Origin: Moraxellaceae bacterium
GTDB lineage: Bacteria; Pseudomonadota; Gammaproteobacteria; Burkholderiales; Rhodocyclaceae
NCBI GenBank assembly: GCA_031119205.1
Contig: JAVHYF010000034.1
Location: 1-42,741, forward strand
Direction: 5' to 3'
DNA: 42,741 bases
A program made the translations under genes and the position numbers. Positions within the stretch are counted from its first letter, which is position 1. The number at the start of each line of letters is the position of its first letter. Positions 6,122 to 30,339 of this stretch are shown one piece after another. Under the pieces are notes generated by a model. That model saw only the letters and a list, made by a program, of their open reading frames with translations, was not told where the DNA came from and made no database searches.

Positions 6122-6186
6122 TCAACAAGCGGATGGCCCCACCATCCCCCGCTTCACCTCCCTGAGCGGGAACCGGTGTTTGCCTC

Positions 6187-6240
6187 CCCCGGCGTCACCG
6201 GCGTTTCTGCCCCGGCGTCTTTACGCCGGGGAATTTTTTT
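6187..6240 (+). terminator. Orphan rightward intrinsic terminator with a competing arm
   Basis: On the plus strand, TCCCC-less stem CCCCGGCGT (6210-6218) pairs with ACGCCGGGG (6223-6231) and is followed by AATTTTTTT to 6240. The decamer CCCCGGCGTC occurs twice (6187-6196 and 6210-6219), so the upstream copy could pair with the same 3' arm. It overlaps the 3' end of engB, which is on the other strand. No plus-strand gene ends here, so it would end a leftover, antisense or small-RNA transcript. Confidence 0.65.
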
Positions 6241-8023: not shown

Positions 8024-8042
8024 AATGATAACAATTCCCATT
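8024..8042. promoter_or_regulatory. Candidate Fur box, tonB / small membrane peptide
   Basis: AATGATAACAATTCCCATT. Against the 7-1-7 consensus TGATAATnATTATCA it matches 11 of 14 positions by eye. It lies 81 bases upstream of tonB and about 120 upstream of the divergent small gene. Confidence 0.8.
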
Positions 8043-18185: not shown

Positions 18186-18204
18186 AATGAGAATAATTAT
18201 CATT
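18186..18204. promoter_or_regulatory. Fur box upstream of the Fiu-like receptor
   Basis: AATGAGAATAATTATCATT matches 13 of 14 positions of TGATAATnATTATCA. It is the best Fur site in the window, 84 bases upstream of the start. A further ATTCTCATTTAC element at about 18149-18160 may extend the operator. Confidence 0.93.
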
Positions 18205-27300: not shown

Positions 27301-27406
27301 TGCGCGACAGGGGCGCCTATTATTGGCGCTCGACTTCCGGCGGGGTTTTGCGTGAGCAAGGATCTTGTTTGCGCCCGAGCCCGCAGCACTCCGACAGGGA
27401 ACAGGC

Positions 27407-28412
27407 ATGGACACCGCACACCGCGCAGACCGTGATGGCAGCCCACAGCCGTGGGTGGACCGCGGACAGCTTGTTGCGCGCATGAGTGAAGGCACGCGCC
27501 AGTACCGCGTGCTGAAACCGGACGTCGCCGCCGAGGCCCCGGTGCTGGCTGGCCGTCTCGCAGTCCTCCATCCTCGTCGCGGCATGCAGGTGAAATGCAC
27601 CGAGTTGCGCGACCTGCACGACATGACCACCGAGGCGGAACTGAGCGAATGCGTCAGCCTGGTGGTGCTGCTGAACGGCCGCGCAGAAGCCCGCTTCGGC
27701 GATCGCAACGTACGCATCGGCACGGAGCGCGGCGGGGCGGATGCGGCGCTGATTTCGCTGGCCGAGTCCGAACGCTTCACCCGCCACTCCCAGCGCGGGC
27801 GCTATGAACGCAAGGTCGGCATCACGCTGCAGCCCGAGTGGTTCGCCGACAGCGGGCTGGCCAGTGCGGCACTCGACCGCTTCCGCCGCGAGCATCTGTC
27901 CGTCGCACAGTGGCAGCCGTCCGCGCGTGCCCAGGTCATCGCCGAGCAGATGCTGCGCCCCCCCCGTTTATGCCAACGGTCTGGAGAGCCTGTACCTCGA
28001 AAGCCGGGCCATCGAACTCGTCGCCGATGCGATCGGTCAGCTCGGACAACTCGCCGCGACAATCTCGCCCGGCGGCTCCTCACTCGGCATCCGCAGCCGC
28101 CAGCGTCTGCATGCACTGCGCGAGTGGCTCGACAGCGGTGCTGCAGACACCCTGAGCCTCGAAGATATCGCCCGCCACGCGGGGCTGAATGCACACAGCC
28201 TGCAACAACAGTTCCGTGTCACGTTCGGCAGCACCATCTTCGAGTACCAGCGTAATCGCCGCCTCGACATCGCGCGCATCGCGCTGGAAACACAGGCTGT
28301 CAGCATTGCGCAGGCGGCCTGGCAGGCCGGCTACGGGAGCGCGGCCAACTTCGCCACCGCGTTCCGTCGTCGCTTCGGCCTCACCCCACGTCAGGCACAG
28401 GCTCGAAACTGA
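27407..28412 (+). pseudogene. AraC-family regulator interrupted by a frameshift at a C8 run
   Basis: Read with one C removed, the gene gives about 334 residues: an N-terminal sensing domain (27407-27964) and a C-terminal AraC DNA-binding domain with SLEDIARHAGLNAHSLQQQF and IAQAAWQAGYGSAANFATAFRRRFGLTPRQA, ending at 28412. As written, a run of eight C (27958-27965) puts the two parts in different frames: LRPP runs into RLCQRSGE instead of VYANGLES. The uncorrected product would be about 282 residues without the DNA-binding domain. PchR-type regulators of siderophore uptake look like this. The break could be a sequencing error, a true pseudogene, or phase variation by slippage. The AGGGA site precedes ATG 27407. 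Confidence 0.85.
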
Positions 28413-28671: not shown

Positions 28672-28690
28672 ATTGCGAATCATTCCCATT
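28672..28690. promoter_or_regulatory. Fur box of the small-paralogue / S4 operon
   Basis: ATTGCGAATCATTCCCATT. It matches the betaproteobacterial TGCGAATnATTCGCA at 12 of 14 positions and the E. coli-style consensus at 10 of 14. A TATAGC -10-like element (28694-28699) is four bases away, so Fur binding would occlude the promoter. 45 bases separate it from the first start codon. Confidence 0.82.
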
Positions 28691-28734
28691 TGCTATAGCC
28701 TGACGTCACAGTGACATTGGCAAGGGAGAAACGC

Positions 28735-29010
28735 ATGCACGACGCGTCCACCGTCATCCCGCAGGGCAGTGCCCCGCGACTGACCAGCGCAGCACTGTGT
28801 GCGATGACCCGGTTTGCCGAAGCGCCAAGCAATGAACTGGCAGCCCTCGTGGCCCGCCACCTTGATTGCCTGGCCGAACATGCAGCGACCGATGTACAGC
28901 TGCGTGACATCAGCAACCAGCTGGCCCTGCGCTGGCGCGACTGGATCGTCGCCCGCAATGCGCAGAAGCCGACGGGAAGCCAGGCACTGAATTACAGCGA
29001 GAACTCATGA
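28735..29010 (+). CDS. Small helical protein, paralogue A of an unnamed family
   Basis: 91 residues, not a family I recognise. The ribosome-binding site is AAGGGAGA. A flexible N-terminus is followed by a compact helical core: LTSAALCAMTRFAEAPSNE (about 17-35), AALVARHLDCLAEHA, and LRDISNQLALRWRDW. There is no signal peptide or membrane helix, so it is probably cytosolic. The core is paralogous to the next gene: 23 of 52 positions are identical in a hand alignment. The shared pattern is MTRFAE-x-P ... AA-x-V-x2-HL ... AE ... D-x3-R-x-I ... LA-x-RW. It is the first gene of a four-gene unit and its stop overlaps the next start (ATGA). The Fur box upstream suggests expression under iron limitation. 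Confidence 0.82.
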   Translation: MHDASTVIPQGSAPRLTSAALCAMTRFAEAPSNELAALVARHLDCLAEHAATDVQLRDISNQLALRWRDWIVARNAQKPTGSQALNYSENS

Positions 29011-29282
29011 ACACACACGATCTGCCCCTGCAGAGCAACGACAACGAAGCCAGCCCCGCGATGCTGGCCGCGTCGGTGTTGTCCATGATGACGCGCTTCG
29101 CCGAATCGCCCGACCCCGACACGGCCGCCCAGGTCATTCAACACCTGGAGACTGTTGCCGAGGACGAGCGTAGCGATCCTCTCATCCGGGAGATCGCTCA
29201 TGCCCTTGCCCAGCGATGGCAAGGACACGCCAGCCATTTGTGCCCTGCTTCGGCAGTGCCCGGATCGGCATTTCACCACTAA
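29007..29282 (+). CDS. Small helical protein, paralogue B
   Basis: 91 residues, the same length as paralogue A, with core MLAASVLSMMTRFAESPDPD, AAQVIQHLETVAEDE and IREIAHALAQRWQGH. The family is not recognised. It starts within the stop codon of paralogue A, so the two are translationally coupled and could form a heterodimer. The C-terminal 15 residues (ASHLCPASAVPGSAFHH) do not resemble paralogue A. The S4-like gene follows 20 bases later. No export signal is seen. Confidence 0.82.
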   Translation: MNTHDLPLQSNDNEASPAMLAASVLSMMTRFAESPDPDTAAQVIQHLETVAEDERSDPLIREIAHALAQRWQGHASHLCPASAVPGSAFHH

Positions 29283-29302
29283 TAAATCGGAGTATCTCTG
29301 AA

Positions 29303-29914
29303 ATGGCTCGTTACACTGGCCCCCGCGTGCGCATCCTGCGCGCCCTGGGCACGGACCTTCCCGGTCTGACCCGCAAGACCCCGAACAACCGCACGCAACC
29401 CCCCGGTCAACACGGCGGCAAGCAACAGCGCAAGTCTGAATTTGGTCAGCAGCTGATCGAAAAGCAGAAGCTGCGCTACCACTACGGCGTCAGCGAAGTG
29501 CAACTGCGCACGCTGATGAAGGAAGCCAAGAAGGGCAAGAACCCGACCGGCGAAAAGCTGATCGAGCTGCTGGAGCGCCGTCTCGACAACGTCGTCTTCC
29601 GTGCCGGTTTCGCCCCCAGCATTCCCTGCGCACGCCAACTGGTGCGTCACGGCCACATCCAGGTGAACGGCCGCCGCGTCACCATGCCGGCACAGCGCAT
29701 CCGTCCGGGTGACGTCCTGTCGCTGGGCTCCAAGGCCGAGAAGGTTCCGGCCGTGGTCGAGAGCCTGAACGAGCCGGCACTGGCCCGTCCGGAGTGGATC
29801 TCCTTCGACGGCACGCAGAAGCGCGCCACCCTGGCACACGTGCCCCCGGGTGATGCACAACCGTTCCCGCTGGAAATGCAGAAGGTCGTCGAGTACTACG
29901 CGACCCGCGGCTAA
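29303..29914 (+). CDS. rpsD: Divergent ribosomal protein S4 paralogue
   Basis: 203 residues, normal S4 length. It keeps the start MARYTGP, GTDL, PPGQHGGKQQRKSEFG, the LIEKQKLRYHYGVSE helix, TGEKLIELLERRLDNVVFRAGF, and the S4 RNA-binding domain (RQLVRHGHIQVNGRRVTMP-x-x-RIRPGDV). The N-terminal zinc-ribbon cysteines of many S4 proteins are absent: VRILR occupies the CxxC area, and only one Cys (in SIPCARQL) is present. In bacteria S4 nucleates 30S assembly and represses its own alpha operon. Here none of rpsM, rpsK, rpoA or rplQ is nearby; instead it is third in a Fur-boxed operon of small unknown genes. I infer a second copy besides a standard alpha-operon rpsD elsewhere. GGAG lies upstream of the ATG. 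Confidence 0.9.
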   Translation: MARYTGPRVRILRALGTDLPGLTRKTPNNRTQPPGQHGGKQQRKSEFGQQLIEKQKLRYHYGVSEVQLRTLMKEAKKGKNPTGEKLIELLERRLDNVVFRAGFAPSIPCARQLVRHGHIQVNGRRVTMPAQRIRPGDVLSLGSKAEKVPAVVESLNEPALARPEWISFDGTQKRATLAHVPPGDAQPFPLEMQKVVEYYATRG

Positions 29915-29931
29915 GAACGGAGCACGACCCC

Positions 29932-30195
29932 ATGCAGCATGTACGCCCGCCGGAATGTCAGGACTGTTCTACCGATCAGGCTCTGGCCAACCTGCTGTGC
30001 ATGCTGCATCTGTACTTTGTTGGTGAGCACTGTGCGAATTGCGAGGAGCGTCTTTCCGACGCGATCTGCGCGCACTTCCAGGAACTGGGCGAACGGGGCG
30101 AACTCGGCAACGTATCGCGCGAAACCTGCCTGGAGCTTGCTGACCACTGGGCCATGCGGATGCGCAAGGCCCATGCGACGGCGACCACGCACTAG
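29932..30195 (+). CDS. Small protein with two CxxC motifs, possible third family member
   Basis: 87 residues; family not recognised. There are seven cysteines: CQDC at 9-12, Cys23, CANC at 34-37, Cys46 and Cys66. The CxxC pairs could bind zinc or an Fe-S cluster. The helical layout resembles the two upstream paralogues: LLCMLHLYF, then DAICAHFQELGE, then SRETCLELADHWAMRM against x-REIAHALAQRW. The similarity is weak and needs profile search. GGAG lies upstream, 17 bases after the S4 stop, so it is the last gene of the unit. A hairpin overlaps its stop codon. Confidence 0.8.
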   Translation: MQHVRPPECQDCSTDQALANLLCMLHLYFVGEHCANCEERLSDAICAHFQELGERGELGNVSRETCLELADHWAMRMRKAHATATTH

Positions 30196-30301
30196 TACGT
30201 GGTCGCCTCGCAACAGGTTTTAGGCTGAGGGCGTTCACAGCGCCCGTTTCGGAACCGCCACCTTGGAAGGAATGGCGAAGCTCAAGGAGCGGCTTGGTTC
30301 C
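30180..30301 (+). ncRNA. Structured 3' untranslated region; candidate 3'-UTR-derived RNA
   Basis: Three hairpins in series precede the terminator: GGCGACCACG/CGTGGTCGCC (30180-30207, over the stop codon), GGGCG/CGCCC (30229-30245), and GGAACC...GGTTCC (30251-30301) with an inner CCTTG/CAAGG. Continuous structure of this kind is seen in 3'-derived regulatory RNAs. No promoter is evident, so it is probably made by mRNA processing, if at all. Confidence 0.4.
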
Positions 30302-30302
30302 G

Positions 30303-30339
30303 GCCGCGCGATCCGGCGATTGCGCGGCGCCCTTTTCTT
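30303..30339 (+). terminator. Terminator of the S4-paralogue operon
   Basis: GCCGCGC (30303-30309) pairs with GCGCGGC (30322-30328), extended by a G-T pair and ATC/GAT over a CGGC loop, then GCCCTTTTCTT. It lies 108 bases past the last stop codon. Confidence 0.75.

Follow-up and report, generated by a model that had tools for sequence, protein, structure and literature searches.

A putative iron-regulated operon at positions 28672 to 30339 of contig JAVHYF010000034.1 (assembly GCA_031119205.1) encodes a ribosomal protein uS4 that lacks the four N-terminal cysteines of the canonical, alpha-operon S4 of related bacteria. The full 42,741-nucleotide contig is referred to below as the window. No other S4 was found in the genome, to the extent that a draft assembly can show. 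We consider it reasonably probable that the protein belongs to a family of Fur-controlled, iron-free spares that save the iron of a cluster-bearing S4, and that the window genome has retained the spare alone. Genomes, contigs and loci carry G, C and L numbers; the source genome is G000 and the window is its contig C7.

The window gene encodes the only S4 found in its genome

The third gene of the operon is a full-length bacterial uS4 (rpsD) that scores above the curated cut-offs of both TIGR01017 (E 1.1e-61, 208.1 bits, cut-off 177.2) and PRK05327 (E 1.8e-65, 220.6 bits, cut-off 116). C109 is its single cysteine, which bears out an earlier interpretation made from the DNA letters alone (the sequence-only reading) that the N-terminal cysteines are missing. 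A TIGR01017 search of the genome to E 10 returned the window S4 and one weak S4-domain match (E 0.011), and a four-cysteine S4 model matched the window S4 alone. The alpha operon, on contig C24, runs infA-rpsM-rpsK-rpoA-rplQ with rpsD missing. The canonical, presumably metal-binding S4 was not found in the window genome and is present in 25 other genomes that carry the cysteine-free type, here called the paralogue. The sequence-only reading had placed the gene far from any alpha-operon gene, correctly in that rpoA lies on a different contig, and had proposed a second S4. For this genome the second S4 was rejected, because the profile searches give one S4 only.

The absence of canonical rpsD could be an artefact of assembly or binning, given that the genome is a 4.63-Mb draft of 90 contigs, 96.06% complete with 2.85% contamination. 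We regard this as quite improbable. The genes rpsK and rpoA lie on one contig with ~200 bp between them, where neither rpsD nor an S4 remnant above noise was found. The hemB gene of the S4-bearing contig (named by eye) is single copy in the genome, so there is no sign of a foreign contig. Finally, the same absence was seen in G096 and G142, which are both listed as 100% complete. A tblastn search of plasmid records gave matches that were all below 60% identity.

Organization of the operon

Upstream sites were sought by scanning for AATGANAATNATTNTCATT, which we take to be the Fur consensus, with a threshold of at most 3 mismatches of 16. The features of the operon are as follows.

28672..28690, strand not assigned: Fur-type box ATTGCGAATCATTCCCATT, 3 of 16 positions mismatched to the consensus
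28694..28699, plus strand: -10-like hexamer TATAGC, assigned by eye
28735..29010, plus strand: O1, small protein of 91 amino acids (small-protein family, model E 1.3e-9)
29007..29282, plus strand: O2, small protein of 91 amino acids, same family as O1 (model E 3.9e-19)
29303..29914, plus strand: uS4, 203 amino acids, N terminus without cysteine (NCBIfam PRK05327, TIGR01017)
29932..30195, plus strand: O4, diverged small-family member of 87 amino acids (E 9.4e-5; 1.4e-20 after an iteration including O4)
30303..30328, plus strand: terminator-like hairpin with a T run, from the terminator scan

The genes are closely packed, with a 4-base overlap between O1 and O2 and gaps of 20 bases between O2 and the S4 gene and 17 bases between the S4 gene and O4. 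This layout, from the Fur-like site and adjoining TATAGC to the terminator-like hairpin, had been described in the sequence-only reading and was confirmed on the sequence. The window box is classed as Fur-type by its consensus match only; five Fur-type sites were found in the window, against 0.00 expected from 100 dinucleotide shuffles. Because the hexamer directly follows the box, a repressor sitting on the box would also block the promoter. TATAGC at 28694-28699 is absent from the output of a sigma-70 scan, which gave no promoter. The terminator scan found two hairpins in the window and a mean of 2.0 in shuffled sequence, so that the hairpin at 30303-30328 is weak evidence alone.

The missing element is probably an iron-sulfur site

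Canonical S4 could be read in 25 genomes with the paralogue and carries the motif C-x2-C-x13-C-x4-C in every one of them (16/16 in a sample of relatives and 9/9 further ones from a sample of the order). Canonical-lineage S4 was read in 109 relatives, and all 40 of these genes that were checked by coordinates lie within 1.5 kb of rpoA; adjacency to rpoA was also checked for six genus mates, G185 and G259. The motif aligns without gaps to the S4 chain of PDB entries 10px and 1fjg, which we take to be Thermus structures. According to the accessible part of PMC6555806, the Zn-finger of Thermus uS4 binds Fe4S4 and not zinc, as confirmed by long-wavelength diffraction after a first assignment by the Steitz group. 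In the number and spacing of these cysteines, the canonical S4 of the relatives matches the Thermus thermophilus protein described there. The window protein has none of the four and is of a different S4 lineage. In the accessible part of PMC10450194, (CXXC)-(CXXXXC) is given as the cysteine-containing (C-plus) pattern of uS4.

By analogy with Thermus, the element missing from the paralogue is probably an iron-sulfur site. The sequence-only reading had taken it for a zinc ribbon, an assignment at odds with the Fe4S4 that this motif holds in Thermus S4. Fe4S4 rather than zinc at this motif would explain a link of the operon to Fur instead of Zur.

The cysteine-free S4 forms a separate lineage

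In the relatives sample 21 of 121 genomes carry the paralogue: the window genome, six of the seven other members of its genus, 12 genomes of other genera in the family and two of other families. A further sample of the order, which appears to be Burkholderiales-like, gave 17 carriers among 399 genomes, with scores splitting cleanly into at least 330 and at most 212 bits. The window genome was the sole carrier in a sample of the class (369 genomes). Three class genomes of one other family (G612, G817 and G723; loci L278, L279 and L280) hold a related S4 at ~260 bits that is their only S4 match and starts without the four-cysteine motif; no Fur box was found within the 3.6 kb examined at these loci.

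None of 20 aligned paralogues has the four-cysteine motif or any cysteine within the first 45 residues. A tree of 32 paralogues and the two canonical S4 types of the order (22 and 18 rows) places all the paralogues in a single clade, with support 100/88, separate from the canonical types, each of which is a clade of its own; the bootstrap was not fully settled. The protein had been called a divergent S4. It is indeed set apart from the canonical protein, and on the tree is better described as a different S4 lineage. The closest S4 to that of the window on the tree is from G012, a member of another genus, and not from its genus mates; this placement points to a transfer or a hidden duplication.

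Six genus mates and other members of the order have a homologous cysteine-free S4 as well as the canonical S4 in the same genome, so that the idea of a second copy, wrong for the window genome, holds for the family. In one of these genus mates (G001) the paralogue is split over two frames near codon 107 (L115:4024-4622), as either sequencing error or decay. It was omitted from the alignment and tree, and its locus L115 was kept when Fur boxes, HemP-like genes and small proteins were counted (below).

Canonical S4 is missing in several lineages

An rpsK-rpoA junction without rpsD, in an alpha operon that is intact in other respects and with the paralogue as the only S4, was found in G000, G053, G096 and G142. 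G096 and G142 are of the same genus, and the canonical S4 is missing in at least three lineages, the window genome included. Between rpsK and rpoA of G000, G053 and G096, no trace of rpsD rose above noise (best E 0.34). In the relatives sample, loss was seen in 3 of 19 paralogue-bearing genomes versus 0 of 93 others (p 0.0043), a count that omits the paralogue-bearing G019 and G041. Also omitted were seven relatives without the paralogue in which no S4 at all was found; rpoA is absent from them as well, and they were taken as missing data. G019 was rejected as a sole-S4 case since its assembly is without rpoA and the alpha operon is unreadable; G041 was rejected since the C terminus of a canonical S4 lies at a contig edge. 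G195 and G458 show the paralogue only, but are without rpoA and 78% and 64% complete, respectively, and were not counted. G001 illustrates the opposite fate, its canonical S4 being whole and its paralogue broken.

Normal ribosomes are not to be expected in a cell that has no S4. Where it is the sole S4, the paralogue should therefore be a working ribosomal protein, which suggests that in G096, G142, G053 and G000 the cluster is dispensable for translation. The same point bears on a regulatory role outside the ribosome, in which this S4 would bind RNA and repress genes for iron or translation; the sequence-only reading had raised an RNA-binding regulator in general terms. E. coli S4 is a precedent in that it is an RNA-binding autoregulator. 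We nevertheless judge this role very improbable for a full-length S4 that scores above the family cut-offs and that should build the ribosomes of four genomes.

G096 and G142 have no Fur box within 1500 bp upstream of the S4 gene and one box downstream of it in each case. The lack of an upstream box would fit a relaxation of Fur control after loss of the canonical gene.

Fur-type boxes and iron genes accompany the paralogue

Of 33 paralogue loci, 17 have a Fur-type box in the 1500 bp upstream (the window and 16 of the 32 others), versus 1 of 120 control blocks, which were 1500-bp blocks from the rpsD and rpoA loci of relatives. The enrichment has a p of 1.2e-12, with loci treated as independent though they are related. 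From these boxes we infer that the paralogue operons are probably under Fur control.

A HemP-like open reading frame (ORF), identified by a C-terminal motif search, adjoins the S4 gene at 11 of the 32 other loci (7 upstream, 4 downstream). The one such ORF tested matched Pfam hemP with an E of 1.5e-17. HemP was not found in the window genome at E 1; there, bacterioferritin and BFD ferredoxin genes lie downstream of the operon. Besides HemP, the ten neighbour proteins that were scanned included ferritin-like, ChaN, MotA/ExbB-type, CobN-type, DUF2149 and DUF2325 proteins, and one small protein gave no match. At 83 S4 loci outside the paralogue family there was no HemP-like ORF, and the best match to the small-protein family had an E of 0.45.

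An iron-linked replacement of S4, as had been proposed from the window, is well supported for the family by the Fur boxes, by the HemP-like ORFs and small proteins as neighbors, and by the canonical S4 that the relatives hold beside the paralogue.

In a genus mate, a DUF2325 protein is encoded after the S4 paralogue (L116:4711-6018), and similar ORFs were seen by eye in L119 and L120.

A family of small, predicted three-helix proteins is kept with the paralogue

A model built from five relatives' proteins, with no window proteins included, finds O2 (3.9e-19), O1 (1.3e-9) and O4 (9.4e-5); by these profile matches the three are one family. No Pfam or NCBIfam family matched any of them above cut-off, in keeping with their earlier description as unknown paralogues. 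After iteration on the paralogue loci the model found the family at 28 of 33 of them, and nothing better than E 0.96 in 60 control loci. At L122, L127 and L262 the best-matching stretch is off frame or short. At most of the loci the small genes are kept with the S4 gene, which was the outcome of the synteny comparison that the sequence-only reading had suggested.

An AlphaFold2 model of O2 has three helices (residues 17-33, 37-52 and 58-78) and a mean predicted local distance difference test score (pLDDT) of 76.4. A Foldseek search of the small-protein model against the PDB gave no match better than E 1.1, so that the fold names no function. Speculatively, these small proteins may help the cysteine-free S4 to enter ribosome assembly. 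They are missing from 3 of the 4 sole-S4 genomes versus 1 of 26 others (p 0.004; G019, G195 and G458 left out), a pattern that is weak because two of the three are of one genus and G053 shows 721 bp upstream.

The paralogue might be a foreign rpsD, displacing the resident gene or hitch-hiking in an iron operon, that is expressed constitutively and to which iron is irrelevant. The departure of the paralogue tree from taxonomy (the window S4 grouping with that of G012), the 16 of 33 loci with no nearby box, and the S4 genes of G096 and G142, which have neither an upstream box nor small genes, would all suit such an origin. Nevertheless, Fur boxes, HemP-like ORFs and the small-protein family recur across subclades far above controls, and a recurring iron context is unexpected for a passenger gene; we consider this explanation unlikely.

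A proposed Fur-controlled exchange of S4

The explanation that we favor, an iron-free spare under Fur control, would operate as follows. In the usual setting the cell would have two S4s, one from the alpha operon with four cysteines and, to judge from Thermus, an Fe4S4 cluster, and the other without the cysteines. The latter lies in an operon that iron-loaded Fur would bind and repress. When iron falls, Fur would leave the box and the operon would be expressed. Where both proteins exist, new 30S subunits would then take the iron-free S4, and each ribosome would need four iron atoms fewer. In the window genome the cluster-bearing S4 would have been lost, leaving the iron-free S4 to serve all ribosomes.

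Replacement of S4 could also have been selected by oxidative stress, for which a cluster-free protein would be peroxide-proof. Iron-sulfur clusters are sensitive to oxidants and Fur, too, loses its metal under oxidation, so the same operon anatomy fits; the bacterioferritin and BFD ferredoxin genes downstream of the window operon can be counted on this side. However, the boxes, which were sought with the Fur consensus alone, resemble Fur sites and several neighbors are iron or haem uptake genes, and we give oxidative selection only a small chance of being correct.

Several observations weigh against a Fur-controlled iron-free spare. To our knowledge, iron-sulfur occupancy of S4 is known for Thermus only. 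The link between motif and paralogue is weak: the paralogue occurs in 16 of 91 four-cysteine genomes and in none of the 18 with another canonical S4 (p 0.044, one-sided), and the comparison is confounded because the four-cysteine type is one clade. Paralogue-free relatives (n = 93) have the motif in 75 cases and not in 18, which means that 75 of the 91 four-cysteine genomes read have no paralogue. At 16 of 33 paralogue loci the 1500 bp upstream contain no box within the limit of 3 mismatches; for two of these 16, less than 900 bp of upstream sequence is available. EAL and HtpG proteins, among the ten scanned neighbors, are non-iron genes, and the G001 paralogue is broken across two frames. Finally, Fur repression of a sole S4 in iron-rich cells would be lethal if it were tight, and in the window the box has 3 mismatches and no second promoter was found by the scan. 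Either the window box is weak, or there is another promoter, or Fur control became looser once the canonical gene had gone.

Relation to known systems

Zur-controlled paralogues without cysteines (C-minus) are known for the ribosomal proteins L31, L33, L36, S14 and S18. The operon described here is like them in that a ribosomal protein that binds metal has a counterpart without cysteines, encoded in an operon with the box of a metal regulator. It is unlike them in that the protein is uS4, the predicted metal center is Fe4S4, the box is of the Fur type and the metal-bearing original is missing. We know of no S4 example among metal-regulated C-minus paralogues. Fur-controlled iron sparing by substitution is familiar from manganese or heme-free isoenzymes; here too an iron protein would be swapped for an iron-free one under Fur, except that the part swapped is a ribosomal protein and not an enzyme. 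By analogy, we propose an iron- or Fur-linked S4 swap as the iron counterpart of the Zur-controlled cysteine-free paralogues.

With tens of thousands of ribosomes per cell, four iron atoms each would amount to roughly 100,000 iron atoms as a rough estimate. If the proposed exchange is real, ribosomes would hold a large share of the cell's iron, and the ribosomal iron-sulfur cluster would gain a directly testable role in iron economy. We put at slightly better than even the chance that in this order ribosomes are a regulated iron store, with a Fur-controlled swap of S4 and several lineages permanently without the cluster ligands.

In their accessible parts, PMC6555806 and PMC10450194 describe the ribosomal cluster from Thermus structures and relate it to heat adaptation. 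The latter groups species as C-plus only, C-minus only or both for nine ribosomal proteins including uS4, so that species with both types of uS4 may already be counted in its tally. The explanations that it offers for C-minus isoforms are zinc starvation and growth temperature; in contrast to the present case, its accessible part mentions no Fur or iron link, no operon and no loss of the C-plus gene. Among the papers listed by searches of the open-licence literature, none described an S4 linked to iron or to Fur, and the accessible parts of PMC8141631 and PMC9892005 hold nothing on an iron-linked S4.

Outside the order, the closest relatives of the paralogue clade in the tree are L005 and L006, the latter on a long branch. 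L006, from a metagenome-assembled genome labeled Proteobacteria (Deltapro1), has at L006:319-1812 its S4 gene, ~100 bp behind a Fur box with 1 mismatch, and an L3 gene that directly follows (TIGR03625 E 1.5e-58). This box was found in a scan of 12 outside-order loci, in which the only other locus with box matches was the cyanobacterial L015, where they are far from the S4 gene. L006 is possibly an independent case outside the order.

Other features of the window

The other Fur-type sites of the window are at 8024, 15763, 18186 and 33165, the site at 18186 being a perfect match. To judge by position, these sites stand before one TonB-like gene and two genes that resemble TonB-dependent receptors (all three named by eye), and next to the BFD-ferredoxin gene. 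An AraC-type regulator gene beside the operon (27365-28412) appears by eye to be spread over two overlapping ORFs (27365-28255 and 27804-28412), like a frameshifted gene. A match to anti-hemB RNA (Rfam RF02837, 64.3 bits) at 6145-6240 adjoins the hemB-like gene, itself named by eye.

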